DNA of 64,000 nucleotides from Planctopirus ephydatiae (lineage in GTDB: Bacteria; Planctomycetota; Planctomycetia; Planctomycetales; Planctomycetaceae), in NCBI RefSeq assembly GCF_007752345.1, contig NZ_CP036299.1:1999001-2063000 (forward strand), given 5' to 3'. The notes beneath the pieces were generated by a model, which saw nothing but the letters and a program-made list of their open reading frames with translations, made no database searches and was not told the DNA's origin. The translations under genes and the position numbers were made by a program. This document shows, one piece after another, positions 2,460 to 64,000 of this stretch. Position 1 is the first letter of the stretch, and each line of letters begins with the position of its first letter.

Positions 2460-2564
2460 CCACTCTGCCGTGCCGCATGGCCTGCGTTGCCCTCCGCAGT
2501 CGTTGAACTTGGGTCGGTTGGCGGCAGAGGGCTGATTTCCATGATCAACTTAAGGAGGTTATCC

Positions 2565-3629
2565 ATGATGCAACGACTGAGTCTTTCGTGCCTGTTGGTT
2601 GTCGCGGTCGCTTTGGTGGCGTTGGTGGAGGGCACGCACGATGCGACTGCCTGCACCCGCGCGGTCTACTTCGGCAAGGAAGCTCAGACCGTCACCGGCC
2701 GGTCGATGGACTGGGTCGAAGACATGCATACCAACTTGTGGGTCTTCCCGCGCGGTATGGAACGAGACGGCGGCCTCGGCAAGGGGTCGCTGGAGTGGAC
2801 CAGCAAGTATGGCAGCGTCGTGGCCTCGGTCTACGAGGGAGGGACCGCCGATGGCATGAACGAGAAAGGGTTCGTGGCGAACCTGTTGTACCTCGCCGAA
2901 TCCGAGTACGCCGCAGCCGACGACCAGCGGCCGGGCGTGTGCATCACCGCTTGGGCTCAGTACCTTCTCGACAACTTCGCAACGGTTGCGGAGGCCGTTG
3001 CAGCGGTGGAGAAAGACGCCTTTCGAGTCGTCCCCGTCATAGCACCGAACGGAGCGAAGGGGACGGTCCATGTGGCCGTTTCCGATTCCACGGGCGACTC
3101 GGCTATCTTCGAATATGTGAAAGGTCAGTTGGTGATCCACCACGGCAAGGAACTCCAGGTGATGACCAACTCGCCGACCTACGACAAGCAGATGGCGATC
3201 AACGAGTACTGGAAAGACTTCGACGGCGCGGTGATGTTGCCAGGCACTGTGCGGGCGGCGGACCGCTTCGTGCGGGCTTCTTATTACATCAACGCCTGCC
3301 AACAGTCCGCCGATGCTCGTGAAGCCGTGGCGGCCGTGTTTAGTGTCATGCGCAACGTGAGCGTCCCCCGTGGGATCCTCAAGAAGGGTGCCCCCAACGT
3401 TTCATCGACGCTCTGGCTGACGGTCGCTGACCAGAAGAACCGGGTCTACTATTACCAGGACACCAACAGCCCCGGTGCCCTGTGGGTGAAGTTGGACAAG
3501 ATCGACTTCAAGGAGGGCACGGGTGTGCGGAAATTGACGCTGGCTGGTAAGCCGGACGTCGTCGGCGATCAGTCTGCGAACTTCGCGAAGAGTGAGCCGT
3601 TCCAGTTCCTCGCACCCGTGCAAAAGTAA
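2565..3629 (+). CDS. exported choloylglycine hydrolase / linear amide C-N hydrolase family protein
   Basis: A 354-residue N-terminal-nucleophile hydrolase of the family that includes bile-salt hydrolase and penicillin V acylase (PF02275), cleaving linear amide bonds such as N-acyl amino acids or acyl-homoserine lactones. The start at 2565 has a strong TAAGGAGGT seven bases upstream and gives a signal peptide (MMQRLSLSCLLVVAVALVAL...ATA) whose cleavage exposes Cys30, the expected catalytic nucleophile (ACTRAVYFG). Further family marks are GRSMDWVEDM with the conserved Arg and Asp, and TNSPTYDKQ with the Asn. The gene is richer in G+C than its neighbours and sits alone between non-coding stretches, which could mean transfer. 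Actual substrate is unknown. Confidence 0.88.
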   Translation: MMQRLSLSCLLVVAVALVALVEGTHDATACTRAVYFGKEAQTVTGRSMDWVEDMHTNLWVFPRGMERDGGLGKGSLEWTSKYGSVVASVYEGGTADGMNEKGFVANLLYLAESEYAAADDQRPGVCITAWAQYLLDNFATVAEAVAAVEKDAFRVVPVIAPNGAKGTVHVAVSDSTGDSAIFEYVKGQLVIHHGKELQVMTNSPTYDKQMAINEYWKDFDGAVMLPGTVRAADRFVRASYYINACQQSADAREAVAAVFSVMRNVSVPRGILKKGAPNVSSTLWLTVADQKNRVYYYQDTNSPGALWVKLDKIDFKEGTGVRKLTLAGKPDVVGDQSANFAKSEPFQFLAPVQK

Positions 3630-44158: not shown

Positions 44159-46153
44159 GTGTTTCTGAAAGATCTTCTGTTAGTGTTTCTCTGCGCGGGC
44201 GTTGTCGTCTATCTCTTTCACCGGCTCAAAATTCCGACGGTGGTGGGATTGCTGGCGACTGGAATTGTCGTCGGCCCCTATGGTTTGCAGGTGGTTGATG
44301 ATGTTCACCGGGTGGAACTTCTCGCCGAAATCGGGGTGGTGGTGCTGCTCTTTACCGTCGGTTTAGAGTTCTCACTTTCCCGTGTGGTCAAAATGGCCAC
44401 GATGATGCTGCAGGTCGGATTTCCTCAAGTCGGGTTTTCATTACTGGCCGGGACGCTAGCCTGCATGGCGACCGGCATTGCCTGGAATTCATCGGTCTTT
44501 GCCGGGATGTTGGTGGCCATGTCTTCGACGGCCATTGTGATCAAGCTGCTGGCTGATCGGGGAGAGCTGGGAACGCCGCATGGGCGGATATCAGTTGCAG
44601 TGCTGCTGTTTCAAGACCTGCTGGTCGTTGTCTGTGTACTCGTTGTACCGCTTCTGGCTGCCGAATCGGGCCAGCATCATTCATTTCTATGGGATGTTTC
44701 CCAAGGTCTGGCGATGGTGCTGGCGATTATCATCGTCGGGCGGTTTGCTGTTCCCCCACTGCTTTATCAGATCGTCCAGACTCGCAACCGGGAACTCTTT
44801 CTCATCTGTATTTTTGTAATCTGTATTGGTACAGCCGCACTGACCAACATGGTCGATCTCTCTCTGCCACTCGGGGCATTTCTCGCGGGGCTGATTATTG
44901 CCGAATCGGAGTATGGTCATCAGACGCTCGCGGAAGTCATGCCATTTCGAGATACACTGAGCAGTCTGTTCTTTATCTCGGTCGGGATGTTGCTCAATAT
45001 CAACTATCTAATGACCCATGGATGGTCGATTTCACTGTTACTAATAGCCATTCTGCTACTGAAGGCATTAACTGCGACAGTGCCTTCACTGCTGGCTGGA
45101 TATTCATTCCGTACGGCAGTGCTCGCAGGGGTTTCGCTGGCGCAGATTGGTGAGTTCTCTTTCGTACTTGCTAAGAGCGGCCTCGAAGTCAAGCTGATGA
45201 CTGCTGATCAATATCAGTTTTTTCTTGCCGTGTCCGTACTATCAATGGTTGCGACGCCTTTAGTCCTGGCTGGATTGCCTCGATTAATTGATCTGATTGA
45301 GCAATCGCCATTGGTTAAGTCGTGGCAGAATTCCACCCCTCAAAAAGATGATCTGATTGACGAACTTAACGGCCATGTCGTGATTGCTGGATATGGGTTT
45401 AATGGAAGGAATCTGGCGACGGTACTAAAAGAATTGAAAATTCCATATGTCGTGCTGGAAATGAATCCACAGACAGTCCGTCGCGAAAGGGCCCAGGGAC
45501 AATCGATTTACTACGGTGATTCAGGCCGGGAATCTGTTCTGGAACATGTTCATATCGAGAAAGCTAAAGCACTGGTGGTGGCGATTAATGACCCGATCTC
45601 TGCACGCCGCACAGTTCAACTGGCCCGTCAGATGAATCCTGATCTGCATATCGTCGTGCGCACCCGCTACTTTACCGAATCGTTTGATTTGAAGAGGCTG
45701 GGTGCGAATAGCATTATTTCCGAAGAGTTTGAAACCTCACTCGAGATCTTTGCTCACGTTCTGCGGGAGTATCATATCCCCGGCAATATGATTAACCGTC
45801 TAGTGGCCAATATTCGCTCGGATCATTATCAGGCATTCCGAGGGCAGGCTCTGGGGCGGACACTCCTTTCCTTTACTCCCGATGGGAATCTCGACGCTCA
45901 ATTTGAAAGCTGCCAACTCGCCCCGCATTCGCATGCGATCGGGAAGACGCTGGGGCAGCTCAGACTGCGAAACTTAACGGGGGTGACCATTGTGGCTGTC
46001 AAACGCAAAGGGCAGGTCGTGACTAATCCGGCTGCTGACATGAAATTGGAACTGGGTGATGTTCTCGTGCTCCTTGGCCAGCCGGAACAGTTTGAAACGG
46101 CCATTGAGTTGTTGGAACTTCCTGCCGAAGGAAAAGAAGACCGACCCGCCTGA
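44159..46153 (+). CDS. KefB-type cation:proton antiporter with TrkA domains
   Basis: A 664-residue CPA2-family antiporter (K+ or Na+/H+ exchange). The membrane domain (about 1-390) begins MFLKDLLLVFLCAGVVVYLF and contains PTVVGLLATGIVVGPYGL, LLFTVGLEFSLSRV, FAGMLVAMSSTAIVIKLL and FLAGLIIAESEYGHQ. The TrkA-N domain starts near residue 406 with HVVIAGYGFNGRNLA and binds NAD(H) or nucleotides; a TrkA-C domain closes the protein (VVTNPAADMKLELGDVLVLLG). The GTG start at 44159 has GAGG eight bases upstream; the frame extends back to GTG 44051. Intact, unlike the second antiporter gene 1.7 kb downstream. Confidence 0.93.
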   Translation: MFLKDLLLVFLCAGVVVYLFHRLKIPTVVGLLATGIVVGPYGLQVVDDVHRVELLAEIGVVVLLFTVGLEFSLSRVVKMATMMLQVGFPQVGFSLLAGTLACMATGIAWNSSVFAGMLVAMSSTAIVIKLLADRGELGTPHGRISVAVLLFQDLLVVVCVLVVPLLAAESGQHHSFLWDVSQGLAMVLAIIIVGRFAVPPLLYQIVQTRNRELFLICIFVICIGTAALTNMVDLSLPLGAFLAGLIIAESEYGHQTLAEVMPFRDTLSSLFFISVGMLLNINYLMTHGWSISLLLIAILLLKALTATVPSLLAGYSFRTAVLAGVSLAQIGEFSFVLAKSGLEVKLMTADQYQFFLAVSVLSMVATPLVLAGLPRLIDLIEQSPLVKSWQNSTPQKDDLIDELNGHVVIAGYGFNGRNLATVLKELKIPYVVLEMNPQTVRRERAQGQSIYYGDSGRESVLEHVHIEKAKALVVAINDPISARRTVQLARQMNPDLHIVVRTRYFTESFDLKRLGANSIISEEFETSLEIFAHVLREYHIPGNMINRLVANIRSDHYQAFRGQALGRTLLSFTPDGNLDAQFESCQLAPHSHAIGKTLGQLRLRNLTGVTIVAVKRKGQVVTNPAADMKLELGDVLVLLGQPEQFETAIELLELPAEGKEDRPA

Positions 46154-46292
46154 CGAAAAGCATGATCCATTCTGATGTGTTCTGCGTTGAACCTGGCAGA
46201 TGCCCTGCGACTACCTGTCGGAGATCAAACTCAGGTGTGCATTCGAGGGAGTTCTTCCTCATCAATCCTGTGATATACGAAAGGTTCAAGCA

Positions 46293-46676
46293 ATGAGCGG
46301 TCTTCACTGGCTTGAAATTCATGGCCTTTCGGTGATTTCTCTGCTGGCGATCGTCGGCACGATACTGCTGCTTTATCGAGAAATTCAGACTCAACACGGA
46401 CATCGCCTGCTCTGGCATAGCTGCCGGGTGGCCGCTTATCTGATGGCGATGATTCTGCTGTTCATGACGCTGGCGGGCTTTATCTGGTGTGAATGGAAAC
46501 TGGGCGGTCTGGCGGTCAGTGATCCTGACGTGCGTAACGATTGGTTTTTGTGGTTGAATCGCTGGTCACTGCTCCTGTTTTTCACATACAACAGCGTACT
46601 GGTCCTGGCATTCAGCCGTTCTTCAGGCTGGAAACAATTATTCAACATCCGCAAATCACTCAGCAACGGTCAATAA
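46293..46676 (+). CDS. small membrane protein, three segments
   Basis: A 127-residue protein with three hydrophobic segments: HGLSVISLLAIVGTILLLY, VAAYLMAMILLFMTLAGFIW and RWSLLLFFTYNSVLVLAF. Between the second and third is a short polar loop (SDPDVRNDWFLWLN). No family recognised. AAAGG lies nine bases before the ATG. It sits between the intact antiporter and the broken MgtE gene on the same strand and could belong to their operon. Confidence 0.72.
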   Translation: MSGLHWLEIHGLSVISLLAIVGTILLLYREIQTQHGHRLLWHSCRVAAYLMAMILLFMTLAGFIWCEWKLGGLAVSDPDVRNDWFLWLNRWSLLLFFTYNSVLVLAFSRSSGWKQLFNIRKSLSNGQ

Positions 46677-46745
46677 ATTCCAGTACAGCATGACATCTCC
46701 AGGTCGCAAGGATTTCCTCATCTTTTTCCCAAGGAACCACGATTG

Positions 46746-47873
46746 ATGCCATCGCCAGAACATGCGCCGGAAGATCGCCCCGCTTCAAAAGAGTTAGCCA
46801 TCGAAGCGAGTGTTGGATCTGACCTGGAACATGTGGTGGCGACTTCTGTTCCTGTGATCGAACAAGAACCGATGGGTGTACCGGCACGTACACCGGTCAA
46901 TGTCCATGATGTGCTTGCCGATCCCGTCACAAAGCATCTTGTCTCGGCTTCACCAATTCTCAAAGCCGACGACACGGTGCAGCAGTCGCTGACAGCCTTG
47001 CGGGCATCGAATGATGTCGGGCGGATCGTTTACTTCTATGTCGTGGATGAAGACCACCGGTTGCTGGGCGTGGTTGCCAGCCGCCGGCTGCTGCTTTCAC
47101 CGCCAGAGACGATCATCCGCTCCATCATGTCTGCAACCGTCATTTCGATTCCCTCGACGGCCACTGTGCTCGAAGCCTGTGAATACTTTACTCGCTATAA
47201 ACTGCTGGCGTTCCCTGTTGTCGATGAAGATCAGAAGATTCTCGGTGCAGTTGACGTTGATCTCTACACCGCTGAAATCATGGAAATAGATCGTCGGCAA
47301 GACAGTGACGATCTATTTCAGTTGATCGGTGTGCATCTGACAGAAGCCTCGCAGCGCAACTCGCGGGCGGCATTTCTAGGCCGGTTCCCGTGGTAACTCT
47401 GCAATGTTCTGGGAGGGATGCTGGCTGCCTTTATTGCCGATGCCTACGACGACGTGGCGACTTTGGCAGTGGTGGCTCCGTTTATTGCTCTGGTCACTGC
47501 ACTGGCTGAAAGCGTCAGTATCCAGTCGGTGAGTCTGGCACTGCAGGCGCTTCATGGTCAACATCCCACCTGGGCGATCTTTTCCCGTAAAGCGGCTTTT
47601 GAAGTGATCGTAGGTGCTCTGCTGGGAATCAGTTGCGGATTCTCTGTGGGAGTCATTGCCTTCCTCTGGAAGGGAAGCTGGGCGGTTTCTGCCAGTCTGT
47701 TTCTGGGAATCGCCGTTGGGGTTACCGCTTCGGCACTGGTGGGCCTGAGTATTCCCTTCGTGCTTCGATTGATTCGACGCGATCCTCAGTTGGCCTCCGG
47801 CCCGATTGCACTTGCATTAAGCGACGTGGTGACGTTGCTCTTCTACTTCAATCTCGGTCGCTGGATTCTTTAA
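46746..47873 (+). pseudogene. mgtE: MgtE-like Mg2+ transporter gene interrupted by an in-frame TAA
   Basis: The gene would encode about 375 residues: an N-terminal disordered tail, two CBS domains (about 70-190; VSRRL-like VASRRLLLSPPETIIRSIM and LLAFPVVDEDQKILGAVD) and the five-segment MgtE membrane domain. The frame is broken by one TAA at 47394-47396. The text reads ...RNSRAAFLGRFPW-stop-LCNVLGGMLAAFIAD, exactly inside the conserved R-x-P-W-L-L-x-N junction, and both parts are in the same frame. A TTA-to-TAA change would explain it. The membrane part could be reinitiated at ATG 47418, but the GGGAGGG before it touches the codon. The MgtE N domain is absent. AAGGA precedes ATG 46746. Confidence 0.82.
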
Positions 47874-47894
47874 TTTCAAAGCCTCGCGAACGAT

Positions 47895-48768
47895 TTATGT
47901 TGCCGGTGAATCCTGTGGAGGTACCACGGGAGTTTCTGCCGAAACCTGGCTGGCGGTGGTTGACTGCTTGATATTGGAGAACTCTCGCTCAACCCGATCA
48001 CGCTCTCGATCGAGTTGGTCACCGGTTGCGCCGAGGTCTTTGAGTATTGATGTTGCCAATGCCAGACCAATGGCGGCTTCATCGACAAAAATTCTGGCGG
48101 CACCAAAATGCTCCAGTTCGGGAAGATTATGCAGAAAGCGTGTGCGCACGAAGGTCATGAATGCCGCAATGGTGGCACCCGCCAGATCGGCTTTGGCAGC
48201 AAGAACTGTGGACAGGACGACGAGGGCCACGACCGTGAACAGATCTTCGACGACCAGCCAGCCCATGGCGATGCGGCCGGTATTGGTATGAAGCTCACGG
48301 AAATCGGCCAGCACACGTGCCAGAACCACAGTACTGGCCACGCTGAGTGCCAGGCCAAAAATGATGGAAGGCACAAGCCCCCCAGCCGACAATCAGGCCT
48401 AATCCCGTACCGAGTAGAGCAGAAATGAGAATCTGTCCCAGCGTTCCGGGAAGTGCCACTTTACTAACGGCGAGCAGATCAGCCAGATGAAAGTGCAACC
48501 CGACACCGAACATGAGCAGAATCATTGCCACTTCGGCCGTTTGCTCAGCCGGTTTGGCGTTGGCGACAAATCCGGGAGTTGCAGGGCCGACACAAGTCCC
48601 GGCCAGCAGGTAGCCCACAAAGGGCGATAACCCAAGTCGGTTGGTGATGTAACCAAGCACCAGCGCTGCCGTCAGGCCGCCCGTGTGAGTGCGAATCAAA
48701 TCAAGATGATGCAACAGTTCGGATCCTGTTGTGAGAGGTCGAGTTGTCAGGCTTCTTGATTCAGCCAC
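47895..48768 (-). pseudogene. remnant of a YbaL/KefB-type antiporter (frameshift and internal deletion)
   Basis: The N-terminal part (from GTG 48768) matches CPA2 antiporters: LVLGYITNRLGLSPFVGYLLAGTCVGP, VAMILLMFGVGLHFHLADLL. Reading frame is lost at a six-C run (48378-48383; six G on the coding strand) and continues in another frame as GGLVPSIIFGLALSVAS...GRIAMGWLVVEDLF. The sequence then jumps straight to the end of a TrkA-N domain (VRTRFLHNLPELEHFGAARIFVDE), skipping roughly 300-350 residues of membrane and nucleotide-binding domain. This is a decayed gene rather than a compact functional variant. Confidence 0.85.
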
Positions 48769-51808: not shown

Positions 51809-52525
51809 ATGGCTCAGCTTGGACGAATACTGGTGGTGATCGTGGTGGCAGCCAGCCTGGGCTTTGCCGCTTTTGCGGCTTCGCTGGCTAATGGTGGTCG
51901 CAACTGGGTGGGTGACACCCAGAATTCTCCTTTGAATGACTATTTCGAGTTCAGTTCGCAGCCGGGTGAAAAGACGACTTACACCGCAACGCATCGATTG
52001 ACCAAGGAATCCGCTGGCTCAGGTGTGATTCTTTCCGAGGTGGTCAACTCGGCCAAACAGAAGTTGAATCAGGAACTGAGTGAAAAGCTGCAGAAAACTC
52101 AGGCCGAAATCGACGGACTGAAACCACGTATCCCACAGATTCAGGCGTTACGAAAAGACGATGAACAGGCTCTCGTGAGCCGTGAAGCTGAACTGCTCAA
52201 GAATCTCGATGCGGTGCGAGCGAAGATTCTCGCGGCGACTGAGGAAGCGGCTCGCCTAGGTGGCGAGATTGAAAAGGTTCGTGGTGAAGGTGAAGAGCGC
52301 AGGGCTGAGGTTTACCGGTTGAAAAATCAGCTCGAACTGATTCGCAATGACTTGTTTGCTGCCACGCAGCAGAAAAACGCACTGACGGATGAGCTGTTGC
52401 GTCTGGAACAGAATCTTGATCGATTGAAGCGGCGTCAGGCTCAGTTGAAACAGTTATTGGGTGAGCCTTACGAGGATCAGGTGCCTGCTGATGGGGCGCC
52501 GCTTTCATTGAAATCTGCAACGTAA
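51809..52525 (+). CDS. membrane-anchored coiled-coil protein 1
   Basis: A 238-residue protein with one N-terminal membrane anchor (RILVVIVVAASLGFAAFAAS, about 6-25), a short polar region (NWVGDTQNSPLNDYFEF) and a long coiled coil (about 85-225) with heptads such as LNQELSEKLQKTQAEIDGLKPR and LRLEQNLDRLKRRQAQLKQLL. Predicted to project into the periplasm. It shares its layout and anchor style with the next gene, 106 bases downstream, so the two probably arose from a common ancestor or act as partners. No named family; appears planctomycete-specific (inference). Confidence 0.82.
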   Translation: MAQLGRILVVIVVAASLGFAAFAASLANGGRNWVGDTQNSPLNDYFEFSSQPGEKTTYTATHRLTKESAGSGVILSEVVNSAKQKLNQELSEKLQKTQAEIDGLKPRIPQIQALRKDDEQALVSREAELLKNLDAVRAKILAATEEAARLGGEIEKVRGEGEERRAEVYRLKNQLELIRNDLFAATQQKNALTDELLRLEQNLDRLKRRQAQLKQLLGEPYEDQVPADGAPLSLKSAT

Positions 52526-52631
52526 TATTTATTTTGAACAAATCAGCATCGCGATTTGAATCACTGTAATCGCAGCTGAATTCTGACTTTGAATTTGAAG
52601 TAATCCTGGCTGAACGGACCTGAGGTTCGCT

Positions 52632-53480
52632 ATGACATTTGTTGGCAAAATTCTTGTTGTGCTGCATCTGGTGCTGGCCGTGGTCTTCATGGGCTTTGCA
52701 GGTGCCATTTATACAGCCCAGGTGAACTGGCGAACGGCGAAAGAAAACACCCAGAAGCAACTCGATGTTGCTAAGAAGGAACTGGTCGAGAAGTCGACAG
52801 CACTCACTCAGGCTGCCGATGCCGCCGCTAAGAAAGAAGCCGATCTGCAGCAGCAGGTGACTCAATTGACAGGCGAAAAAAATGCACTGACATTGCGGAA
52901 CACTTCTCTGGAAGCCGAAACGGCACGACAGAAAGCGTTTGCCAATTCGGAGCAGAAGATTGCCGCTCTCAGCACTTCGGAAGCTGAACAGCGTCTGCTC
53001 GAGGCACAGCTCCAGCGGGCCAGGAATATTGAACTGGAAAATTCCCGCAATCAGTTGATTACGGCAAACAACAAATTGAGCGACGAGATTTTCGGTGCCA
53101 AGGTCAAATTGGATGCACTGCTTGCTAAACACGAAGAATCATTGCGCGAAATCGCGACGATGAAGTCGTTCCTTGCATCCAAAGACCTTCCCACGGACAT
53201 CAAAAGTATGGTGGTTTCCACGACACCGCCACCACCTGTCACTGGCGTGGTGATGGATCTGCGCCCTGCACGCCCAGGAACCAGCGAGACTGTGGAAATC
53301 AGTCTCGGCAGCGATGACGGATTAACCAAAGGTCACGAACTGACGATCTATCGCAATGATCGATATCTGGGAAAAATCCGCTTGAACTTCATCACGCCTG
53401 ATCGCGCGGTCGGTGAAGTGGTCGAACGAACCAAGAACAGCACTATTCAACGAGGCGATAATGTCACCACGCGGCTCTAA
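52632..53480 (+). CDS. membrane-anchored coiled-coil protein 2 with C-terminal beta domain
   Basis: A 282-residue protein with an N-terminal anchor (ILVVLHLVLAVVFMGFAGAIY, about 7-27), a coiled coil (about 35-185) and a C-terminal beta-rich domain (about 200-282) with EISLGSDDGLTKGHELTIYR and GKIRLNFITPDRAVGEVVE. That order, anchor then coiled coil then small barrel containing G-x-D-D-G-L-x-x-G, recalls the cell-shape protein MreC, though the gene is not beside mreB. The Pro-rich joint TTPPPPVTG links the two parts. Probably an operon with the proteins on either side; function unknown. Confidence 0.84.
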   Translation: MTFVGKILVVLHLVLAVVFMGFAGAIYTAQVNWRTAKENTQKQLDVAKKELVEKSTALTQAADAAAKKEADLQQQVTQLTGEKNALTLRNTSLEAETARQKAFANSEQKIAALSTSEAEQRLLEAQLQRARNIELENSRNQLITANNKLSDEIFGAKVKLDALLAKHEESLREIATMKSFLASKDLPTDIKSMVVSTTPPPPVTGVVMDLRPARPGTSETVEISLGSDDGLTKGHELTIYRNDRYLGKIRLNFITPDRAVGEVVERTKNSTIQRGDNVTTRL

Positions 53481-60638: not shown

Positions 60639-62591
60639 TTGTCACCCGCTGCTGTCGATTCCCGCCCAAATACCGCTGACGAAGCGCCAGCTCCAGCCCG
60701 TCATTTAGTCCTGAGGCTGCTGGGTCTGGCGTGGCGATATCGCAAAAAATGTCTGGCTGTGGTCTTCCTCAATGGATTTGTCGCTGTTCTGGGGCTGGTG
60801 GGATTTCAACTCACAGGGTTAGGGATCGACGTCTTACGAAAGGCTGTGGATCCGGCGGCTCCTGCCGTGGGCTGGCCATTGGGCTTTGCACCACCCGAGA
60901 GCTGGTCACTGGTGGCGGAATTGTCAACGGTCGCTGTCATGATGGCGGTGATGGCGGTTTTGTCGCTGGCGATCAAATACTGGGCGGCGATCGTATCGGC
61001 CCAACTGAGCCAGCAGATTGTGATTCAATTACGAACTGAGGTTTACGACAAACTGCAGAGATTGTCGTTTCGGTACTTTGACGACCATGACAGCAGTTCG
61101 CTGATCAATCGAGTGGCGGGTGATGTCCAGGCCATCCGGCAGTTTGTGGATGGTGTGGTCATCAAGTGCCTCGTGGTGGTGATCACGCTGGCTGTCTGCA
61201 TTGTCTACATGCTGCGGTTGAATGTGGGCCTGACGATTGCCTGCCTCGCGACGACACCACTTTTGTGGTGGGGTGCCATCTGGTTTGCCCGGGTGTCGCG
61301 CGAGCAGTATCTCCAGGCCAGCAAGCTGGGTGACGAGATGGTGCGGGTGCTTTCCGAGAATGTGCAGGGCATTCAAGTTGTGAAAGGATTCGCTGCAGAA
61401 GAGGGACAGATCGAGCAGTTTGCCGAAGCCAACCGCCGAATTGTGGAACATAAGTTCGGGATCTTCTGGAGCCTGAGCCTGTATCAGCCCATCATGGGAA
61501 TTCTTACACAGATCAATATGCTGGTGCTCATCGGGTATGGCAGTTATCTGACGATTCGTGGCGAATTGCCACTCGGGACGGGGTTATTCGTCTTTGCCAA
61601 CCTGCTACACGAATTTGCCAACCAAGTGGGCCATGTCACCAATATTGCCAACAGTATTCAGAGCAGCTTGACTGCCTCTGAACGAGTTTTCGAGATACTT
61701 GATGCGCCACTCGAAGTCGATTCTCCCGCATCGCCACAACAGCCAGCTCAGATTCGTGGAGAATATGTGCTGGAGCAGGTGAGCTTTGAGTATGTTCCCG
61801 GGAAGGCAGTGCTCAAAGAGATCAACCTGCGGATTGGTGCGGGCCAGATGGTGGGGATCACCGGAGAAACCGGTGCGGGAAAAACGACCTTACTGGCATT
61901 GCTGGCCAGGTTTCATGATCCGACTTCAGGCCGCATATTGCTCGATGGTGTCGATTTGAAGGCGTGGGATCTGCCCCATTTACGACGACAGATCGGGATG
62001 GTCTTTCAGGAAAGTTTTCTATTCAGCAATACGGTCTCGAACAATATTGCCTTTGGTAAGCCCTCGGCGACTCTCGATGAAATCGAATTTGCGGCCCGCC
62101 AGGCGGCTGCGGAAGAATTTATCTCGGCCATGCCCGGGCAATACCAGAACGTGGTTGGTGAGTATGGCACTAACCTTTCGGGTGGTCAGAAACAGCGAAT
62201 CTCACTGGCGCGTGCGTTGATCCTTCGTCCGCCGGTCCTGATTCTTGATGACGCCACAGCGGCTGTGGATTCTGAAACCGAGCATGCCATCCAGCAGACG
62301 CTTGATCGACTTCGCGGCGAACGAACAGTCATTCTCGTTTCGAGTCGAGTCAGTACGTTAAGACATGCAGATCAGATTTTTGTGCTGAATGCCGGGATGC
62401 TGGCTGAAACGGGCAATCATCAGGAATTGATGCAGAAGCATGGCCATTACTTCCAGATGGCCCAATTGCAGGCGTGGGAACAGACACTGACTGAGCCTGA
62501 AGATTCGTTACCAGAGGATCGTGAAGCCAGTTCGTGGCCCAGTGCGCAAGGAGCGGCCTTTCCGCAAACGAAAGGGATCCGCAACGTATGA
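60639..62591 (+). CDS. ABC exporter half-transporter with degenerate ATP site
   Basis: A 650-residue half-transporter of the MsbA/BmrCD/multidrug class: six-segment membrane domain (about 25-325), then an ATPase domain (about 370-615) with Walker A GETGAGKTTLLALL, Q-loop IGMVFQESFLFSN and signature LSGGQKQRISLARAL. The Walker B region reads LILDDATAAVD, so the catalytic Glu is Asp, and the switch His is Ser (LVSSRVSTL), as in the non-hydrolysing half of heterodimeric exporters. The start is TTG 60639; no ATG lies before the first segment. Its stop overlaps the start of the next gene by four bases. Confidence 0.92.
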   Translation: MSPAAVDSRPNTADEAPAPARHLVLRLLGLAWRYRKKCLAVVFLNGFVAVLGLVGFQLTGLGIDVLRKAVDPAAPAVGWPLGFAPPESWSLVAELSTVAVMMAVMAVLSLAIKYWAAIVSAQLSQQIVIQLRTEVYDKLQRLSFRYFDDHDSSSLINRVAGDVQAIRQFVDGVVIKCLVVVITLAVCIVYMLRLNVGLTIACLATTPLLWWGAIWFARVSREQYLQASKLGDEMVRVLSENVQGIQVVKGFAAEEGQIEQFAEANRRIVEHKFGIFWSLSLYQPIMGILTQINMLVLIGYGSYLTIRGELPLGTGLFVFANLLHEFANQVGHVTNIANSIQSSLTASERVFEILDAPLEVDSPASPQQPAQIRGEYVLEQVSFEYVPGKAVLKEINLRIGAGQMVGITGETGAGKTTLLALLARFHDPTSGRILLDGVDLKAWDLPHLRRQIGMVFQESFLFSNTVSNNIAFGKPSATLDEIEFAARQAAAEEFISAMPGQYQNVVGEYGTNLSGGQKQRISLARALILRPPVLILDDATAAVDSETEHAIQQTLDRLRGERTVILVSSRVSTLRHADQIFVLNAGMLAETGNHQELMQKHGHYFQMAQLQAWEQTLTEPEDSLPEDREASSWPSAQGAAFPQTKGIRNV

Positions 62592-64000
62592 AGTCATCTG
62601 CTCCGCAAGCGATCATCGGGGATCTTCAAGGACTGACGCAGGTTGTGCGTAAGGAGGAATCCGAGGCACAGACCAGGCCTCTGGATTTCCGGCTGATTTC
62701 CCGAATTCTGACTTATATGCGGCCCTATGCAGCCAAACGGAATGCACTTCTGGTGGCGGTAGTGCTCCGAGCGATTCAGCTACCGGCATTGACCTGGGCG
62801 ATTGCACTGACCATCAATGGCCCTGTCACATCACGAGATATTCCAGGGGTCTGGCTGGCTGCGGGGGGATTTTTCCTTCTGGCACTTTCGACACAGTTCG
62901 TGATGCATTTTCGACAGCGTTACGCCCTCGAACTGGGTGAACTTGTCGTTAAAGATCTCCGCAATGAGTTGTTTGCACATCTGCAGAACATGCCCTTGAG
63001 TTTCTTTAACCGTACAAAAGTCGGGCGAATTATCAGCCGCATGATTTCGGATATGGAAGATGTGCGTGTCGGTGTGCAGGAAGTGTTGTTTGTCAGCCTG
63101 GTGGCGTTTGGACAGTTGCTCGTCGCGGCAGCCTGCATGCTCTATTACGACGTGGGACTGTTTCTTCTGGTGCTGGGGATGGCCCCGATTCTGTGGTTGA
63201 CCAATCGGTACTTCCACAAGCTGATGAGTGAACTATTGCGGCAACTGCGGGAATCTTTCAGCCGGGTGACAGCCACTTTGGCGGAATCTGTCCTGGGCGT
63301 GCGAGTTACGCAAGGGTTCAGTCGGCAGGATGAAAATGCGAGATTGTTCAAGTTACTGGTGCAGGATCATTCGAAATACAACACGCGTGTGATGCAGGCC
63401 CAGGGGCTCTTTTTGCCACTGCTGGAATTCAACAGCCAGTTCTTTGCGGTGCTGCTTTTAATTGTCGGGAGTTACCGCGTTTTACAACCCGATTCGACAC
63501 TGACCATTGGCGAACTGGTCGGTTTTTTCTTTATGGCGAACATGTTCTTCTCGCCGATTCAGATTCTTGGCAATCAGTACAATCAGGCACTGACAGCGAT
63601 GGCCGGGGCTGAGCGATTGTTTGCACTGCTGGATACGCCGCCGGAATGGACAGATTTGCCAAATGCCCGGCCCTTGCCCGATGTGCGAGGACAAGTCGAG
63701 TTCGACAATGTGTGGTTCAGTTATGAACCTGGCCGGCCTGTTTTGAAGGGGATCAACTTCAAAGCCGAACCGGGTGAAACGATTGCTCTGGTGGGACATA
63801 CCGGAAGTGGCAAGACGTCGATCATCAATCTCGTGGCCCGCTTCTGGCTCCCTGACTCTGGCCAGATCCGCGTGGATGGAGTCGATCTGCGGGGAGTGAC
63901 GAGTGAATCTCTCCATAGGCAGATTGGAATTGTCCTGCAAACCAATTTCCTCTTTGCGGGAACGGTGCTGGATAACGTCCGGTTTGCCCGGCCCGATGCC
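62588..64000 (+). CDS. ABC exporter half-transporter, partner (truncated by window end)
   Basis: An open frame of at least 471 residues starting at ATG 62588, overlapping the previous stop (ATGA). It has the six-segment membrane domain (SRILTYMRPYAAKRNALLVA, YALELGELVVKDLRNELFAHL, LSFFNRTKVGRIISRMISD) and the start of an ATPase domain with Walker A VGHTGSGKTSIINLVARF and QIGIVLQTNFLFAGTV. The signature, Walker B and switch His lie past the window edge. It is most likely the active half of a heterodimer with the preceding gene. The exported substrate cannot be told. Confidence 0.93.
   Translation, partial: MKSSAPQAIIGDLQGLTQVVRKEESEAQTRPLDFRLISRILTYMRPYAAKRNALLVAVVLRAIQLPALTWAIALTINGPVTSRDIPGVWLAAGGFFLLALSTQFVMHFRQRYALELGELVVKDLRNELFAHLQNMPLSFFNRTKVGRIISRMISDMEDVRVGVQEVLFVSLVAFGQLLVAAACMLYYDVGLFLLVLGMAPILWLTNRYFHKLMSELLRQLRESFSRVTATLAESVLGVRVTQGFSRQDENARLFKLLVQDHSKYNTRVMQAQGLFLPLLEFNSQFFAVLLLIVGSYRVLQPDSTLTIGELVGFFFMANMFFSPIQILGNQYNQALTAMAGAERLFALLDTPPEWTDLPNARPLPDVRGQVEFDNVWFSYEPGRPVLKGINFKAEPGETIALVGHTGSGKTSIINLVARFWLPDSGQIRVDGVDLRGVTSESLHRQIGIVLQTNFLFAGTVLDNVRFARPDA

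Follow-up and report, generated by a model that had tools for sequence, protein, structure and literature searches.

The best described relatives of the gene considered here belong to the MgtE family, represented by MgtE of Thermus thermophilus (PDB 2yvx/2zy9; PF01769, TIGR00400), in which a CBS-domain part is followed by the membrane domain. According to the structural account consulted, the pore of the Thermus channel is lined by TM2 and TM5 (PMC8104411). The fate of the gene also has a described counterpart, in Salmonella Typhi and Paratyphi A, for which the published comparison reports 18 shared inactivating mutations lying inside recombined regions and 22 cases in which the same genes were inactivated independently, its authors concluding that most pseudogenes arose after recombination (PMC2658671). 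The locus from Planctopirus ephydatiae described here resembles both systems. Like Thermus MgtE, it encodes a CBS part and then a membrane domain; unlike Thermus MgtE, it has no detected N domain and is interrupted by an in-frame TAA. As in the Salmonella serovars, an inactivation that appears to be shared via recombination is found beside an independent loss of the same gene, the difference being that the Salmonella case, as presented in that study, is genome-wide and between serovars whereas the Planctopirus case concerns one gene and separate species. It is another instance of the known recombination-shared inactivation, here in an environmental genus, and is ordinary in kind; the interesting part is the null allele found across species. 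Among the open-licence matches listed, no paper title dealt with the short CBS-MgtE gene.

In the window, the whole 64,000-nucleotide stretch of DNA that was analysed, the frame of the MgtE-like gene runs on the forward strand from a probable start at ATG 46746 to a terminal stop at 47871–47873. This ATG and the MPSPE that follows it are also found in G001, G002 and G003, the other Planctopirus genomes compared. The presence of an in-frame TAA at 47394–47396 is confirmed; it is the only stop within the 398-codon frame and separates a CBS-domain stretch from an MgtE membrane stretch. The 5′ half (46746–47393, forward strand, 216 codons) is the CBS-domain regulatory part (PF00571, E 5.6e-15, likewise above the Pfam cut-off), and the 3′ half (47397–47873, forward strand, 158 codons plus stop) is the MgtE membrane domain, which scores 65 bits against PF01769, above the gathering cut-off of 27.6, and aligns with Thermus MgtE 2yvx. 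In the window, the CBS part does not lie directly upstream of PF01769 in one polypeptide, the TAA falling between them. The junction reads RFPW*LCN, the asterisk marking the stop, and a leucine codon occupies that position in all 16 other homologues aligned (CTG in 11, TTG in four and TTA in one), so that by comparison with intact homologues the window gene carries a disrupting mutation. The junction alignment held 18 of the 20 rows of the short subfamily defined below, two of them with the TAA, the second copies of G027 and G105 having been dropped. The claim of the preliminary description that a single TAA splits an otherwise complete, one-frame MgtE-like gene is thus borne out. Its proposal of a single step from TTA to TAA finds no support and is one route among several, given that the stop position is occupied by TTG in G002 and by CTG in G003, the closest relatives; the codon right after it differs as well. 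The first in-frame ATG past the TAA is at 47418–47420 on the forward strand; it is residue 183 when the read-through protein is counted from 46872, and a start there leaves out the seven residues just after the TAA. A promoter scan found no sigma-70-like promoter in 46150–47900, which says little because shuffled sequences average 1.2.

Residues 34–332 of the read-through protein align with Thermus MgtE 2yvx with a phmmer E-value of 1.9e-29. Counted on this alignment, the Asp of the SDV motif falls opposite chain residue 455 of 2yvx, which we take to be native Asp432, assuming a 23-residue tag. The score of the read-through protein against TIGR00400, 154.3 bits, lies below the cut-off of 232.75, so the protein is not a canonical MgtE equivalog. 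Pfam finds CBS and MgtE only, and no MgtE N domain, in both the read-through protein and the intact G003 homologue, and the architecture of the channel is that of a CBS part and a membrane domain without the N domain. The structure predicted for the read-through protein from seven sequences was of low quality (mean pLDDT 54.4, pTM 0.41); in this weak model a helix at residues 172–190 spans both the stop (residue 175) and ATG 47418 (residue 183), which gives weak support to the clipping of the first membrane helix by a start at that ATG.

The survey of relatives took in 170 genomes of the family; matches at E 1e-25 or below came from 42 of them and made up 49 rows, all of which were counted. 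A stop inside the match was seen in three of these 49 rows, all from Planctopirus, namely the window and G001, which have the TAA, and G002, which has a TGA. The short subfamily was defined as the 20 rows, from 18 genomes, with E of 2e-70 or below. None of its 17 other rows has a stop inside the match and neither do the 29 rows outside it, statements that refer to the inside of the match only, the whole ORF having been viewed, among the stop-free short-subfamily rows, for G003 alone. The G003 homologue is one open ORF of 387 codons. Planctopirus was sampled with four genomes (the window, G001, G002 and G003), one genome per species, and the scan of genome contigs for this locus comprised at least seven loci. 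G001 is a separate assembly in which the TAA is embedded in identical surrounding bases, and beyond the TAA no second lesion was found in the MgtE-like gene of either the window or G001. The preliminary description had suggested comparing the locus in sister strains as a check; of the sister genomes, G001 has the same TAA and G002 and G003 have leucine at that position.

The TGA of G002 is at a different site from the shared TAA, and homologue comparison places it at 47571–47573 of the window (forward strand), where the window has TGG. With ATG 46746 as the start, two further lesions appear in G002, a TAG at codon 16 and a one-base deletion, both of which a start at ATG 46872 would bypass. G002 is a metagenome-assembled genome with signs of mixed strains, positions 1–350 of its contig 463 overlapping the end of its contig 309 at 96% identity, and for this reason its lesions could be assembly effects. 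The different stop in G002 fits loss and not a conserved split.

The TAA lies within a tract of 355 bases (47079–47433) in which the window and G001 are identical at 355 of 355 positions; over the surrounding 22 kb the two differ by about 6.6%. The tract is the third-longest identical run between the window and G001 in the aligned window, behind runs of 1834 and 432 bases, and since identical runs of at least 355 bases make up about 4% of the window its length by itself is no more than moderately unusual. The grouping of its variable sites is more telling. In two-state counts, which omit sites with three different bases, all 22 sites of the tract group the window with G001, nine of them as shared-derived states against G003. 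Across the 21,998 bases aligned with G002 contig 309, 2008 sites in total, G001 is grouped with G002 at 987 sites, the window with G001 at 546 and the window with G002 at 475, and the identities over the 22 kb are 95.4% for G001 and G002, 93.4% for the window and G001, and 93.0% for the window and G002. The 22 sites of the tract form the longest window–G001 run in the region, a length reached by none of 10,000 shuffles, and site grouping in the tract differs from that of the rest with a Fisher p of 2.6e-13. Two further window–G001 runs of 14 sites exceed the shuffle maximum of 13, and runs grouping G001 with G002 are longer still, up to 55 sites. Mosaic exchange is general in the region and linkage is ignored by shuffling, so the probabilities attached to the tract are optimistic. 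When G002 contig 463 is used, the longest window–G001 run is five sites, a chance-like length that 3388 of 10,000 shuffles reach.

The synonymous sites of the tract bear on its age. Over about 89 such sites the window and G001 do not differ, for a 95% upper bound on dS of 0.034, which is about one quarter of the dS in the flanks of the gene (0.12–0.14) and about one seventh of that in the upstream gene (0.25). The dS of the tract against G002 is 0.185, so the identity between the window and G001 is not due to slow evolution of the sequence. The absence of differences within the tract, together with the grouping of 22 of 22 sites against a G001–G002 background, indicates that the allele with the stop is of recent origin and probably passed from one species to another. 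On the evidence of three genomes and one outgroup, the tract was probably exchanged by homologous recombination between the lineages of the window and G001 well after they split.

Comparison of the window with G001 gives a dN/dS of 0.145 for the stretch of the CBS part that precedes the tract. In the membrane half beyond the tract dN/dS is 0.078, with 13 synonymous and three amino-acid changes; the value for the upstream CPA2 gene is 0.076. Considered alone, these values would look like two working halves. Inside the tract, where there are no synonymous and no nonsynonymous changes, there is no selection signal from after the lesion, and because the values outside it mostly reflect time before the stop, continued function of the halves is beyond what selection tests can reveal. 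Most of the low dN/dS in the two halves is older than the stop and does not count as evidence that a split gene is at work. The preliminary description had proposed that strong purifying selection on both halves, together with a stop conserved across related species, would mean a functional split gene and not decay. In form this pattern is present, the stop being found in G001 too and both halves having a low dN/dS; as a guide to function it misleads, since the shared stop is inside a recently exchanged identical tract and the selection signal was mostly laid down before it. A stop in two species and a low dN/dS, the usual evidence for a functional split gene, are here accounted for better by a null allele of recent origin that recombination has moved.

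Our reading of these comparisons, which we consider likely to be correct, is that the locus recently became a pseudogene and formerly encoded a short divalent-cation channel of the MgtE type, that its null allele was exchanged within Planctopirus, and that the loss in G002 is separate. It has the look of ordinary gene loss at an early stage, and not of a new kind of gene. Decay had been one option in the preliminary description, and the recently exchanged tract and the different stop of G002 make it the best reading of the MgtE-like locus.

Several other explanations were weighed against this one. The two halves might be made as two proteins, with coupled reinitiation at ATG 47418 yielding the membrane part, and reassemble as a channel. 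Both halves are open, dN/dS is low in each, the ATG is 21 bases past the TAA, and by alignment with Thermus MgtE both pore helices, TM2 and TM5 as described for that channel (PMC8104411), would lie in the 3′ half. However, the GGAGG that precedes this ATG is one base from it, an unlikely spacing, and the homologue alignment shows that the GGA GGG in question are conserved Gly-Gly codons; a product begun at 47418 is missing the leading portion of the first membrane helix; none of the 17 other short-subfamily rows has a stop, and G002 is broken differently; and the shared stop is young. We regard a functional split gene as improbable. Stop-codon readthrough yielding some full-length channel is extremely unlikely. 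The base after the TAA is C, which as a stop context favours some readthrough, and the codons 3′ of the TAA are conserved, but TAA is an ordinary stop here, ending 16 of the 47 long non-overlapping ORFs of the window (mechanically defined), or 14 of 45 once both pieces of the MgtE-like gene are set aside, and the G002 stop differs in both kind and site, so the genomes have no site-specific programme in common. Readthrough and reinitiation at ATG 47418, both raised in the preliminary description, are accordingly disfavoured by the different stop of G002 and the youth of the shared one.

Inheritance of the pseudogene from a common ancestor of the window and G001, with no exchange, would account for their identical TAA. 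Against it, G001 is nearer over the 22 kb to G002 (95.4%) than to the window (93.4%), and G002 has leucine at this position; the tract has no differences between the window and G001 despite the divergence of about 6.6% around it, and its dS of 0.185 against G002 shows that it is not slowly changing. Inheritance of this kind is very unlikely. Sequencing or assembly error, another alternative of the preliminary description and one for which we found no supporting point, has a practically negligible chance of being correct, the same TAA being present in the separate assembly G001. If G001 is P. limnophila, the error rate stated for that genome, below 1 in 100,000, also speaks against it (PMC3035269). 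Error as the cause of the TAA was rejected on the identical TAA of G001.

Under the preferred reading, that of a recently exchanged null allele, the allele would have arisen recently in one Planctopirus lineage and then been carried into the other, the tract with its TAA passing by homologous recombination, and the gene would have been lost separately in G002. Translation would stop past the CBS half and release a CBS fragment, and the pore would either not be produced or appear solely as an N-terminally clipped piece without the CBS gate. Made from 47418, such a product would lack the start of the first membrane helix and have no covalent CBS gate; it might keep a pore, as TM2 and TM5 line that of Thermus MgtE. 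As judged from the sequence, the function of the channel has most likely been lost. The cell probably tolerates the loss, which is plausible because the genome to which the window belongs retains, both in open frames, a canonical MgtE of 451 aa and a single match to CorA. The short CBS-MgtE gene appears to have been lost more than once within Planctopirus. That loss is favoured in the genus, with repeated nulls (the TAA of two species and the separate TGA of a third) of which one was carried across species by recombination because it was beneficial, seems to us unlikely. The role of the gene is testable in P. limnophila, for which a genome-wide essentiality study has been published; in its main text, as available, MgtE, magnesium, the CBS domain and transporters all go unmentioned, and two annotated P. 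limnophila pseudogenes, Plim_2061 and Plim_4186, score as essential (PMC10632474).

The MgtE-like gene is convergent with a broken KefB/YbaL-like CPA2 antiporter gene on the reverse strand (47895–48768), the two lying 21 bases apart in the window. Relative to the G001 protein, the frame of the window KefB-like gene changes near residue 112, and residues 189–511 have been lost. It is broken in the window only, being intact in G001, G002 (contig 463) and G003. Outside the genus, a KefB-like neighbour was found at two of 12 loci (G027a and G047, in a sample made up of G004 and 11 stretches), so the pair is not a strongly conserved operon. In G003, an ORF of 258 aa (L065, 8491–9267) lies between the MgtE-like gene and KefB; it has no match in the G001 stretch, and the 21 bases between the genes leave no room for it in the window. 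Other ORFs were flagged when the window was compared with G001 (six of 46, two of them KefB pieces) and in the reverse direction (four of 45, one of them KefB), and some of those other than KefB may be start-site differences.

Three further stretches of the window were noted. A choloylglycine-hydrolase family gene (PF02275) at 2487–3629 on the forward strand has no match above 75% identity in the G001 stretches compared. An ORF of 311 aa at 52197–53132 on the reverse strand, with no Pfam match, is in two frames in G001 and contains a stop on G002 contig 463. The 1834 bases at 61983–63816, which overlap the end of an ABC transporter gene (60639–62591), are identical to G001 amid surroundings of about 95% identity and are possibly a recently exchanged stretch.
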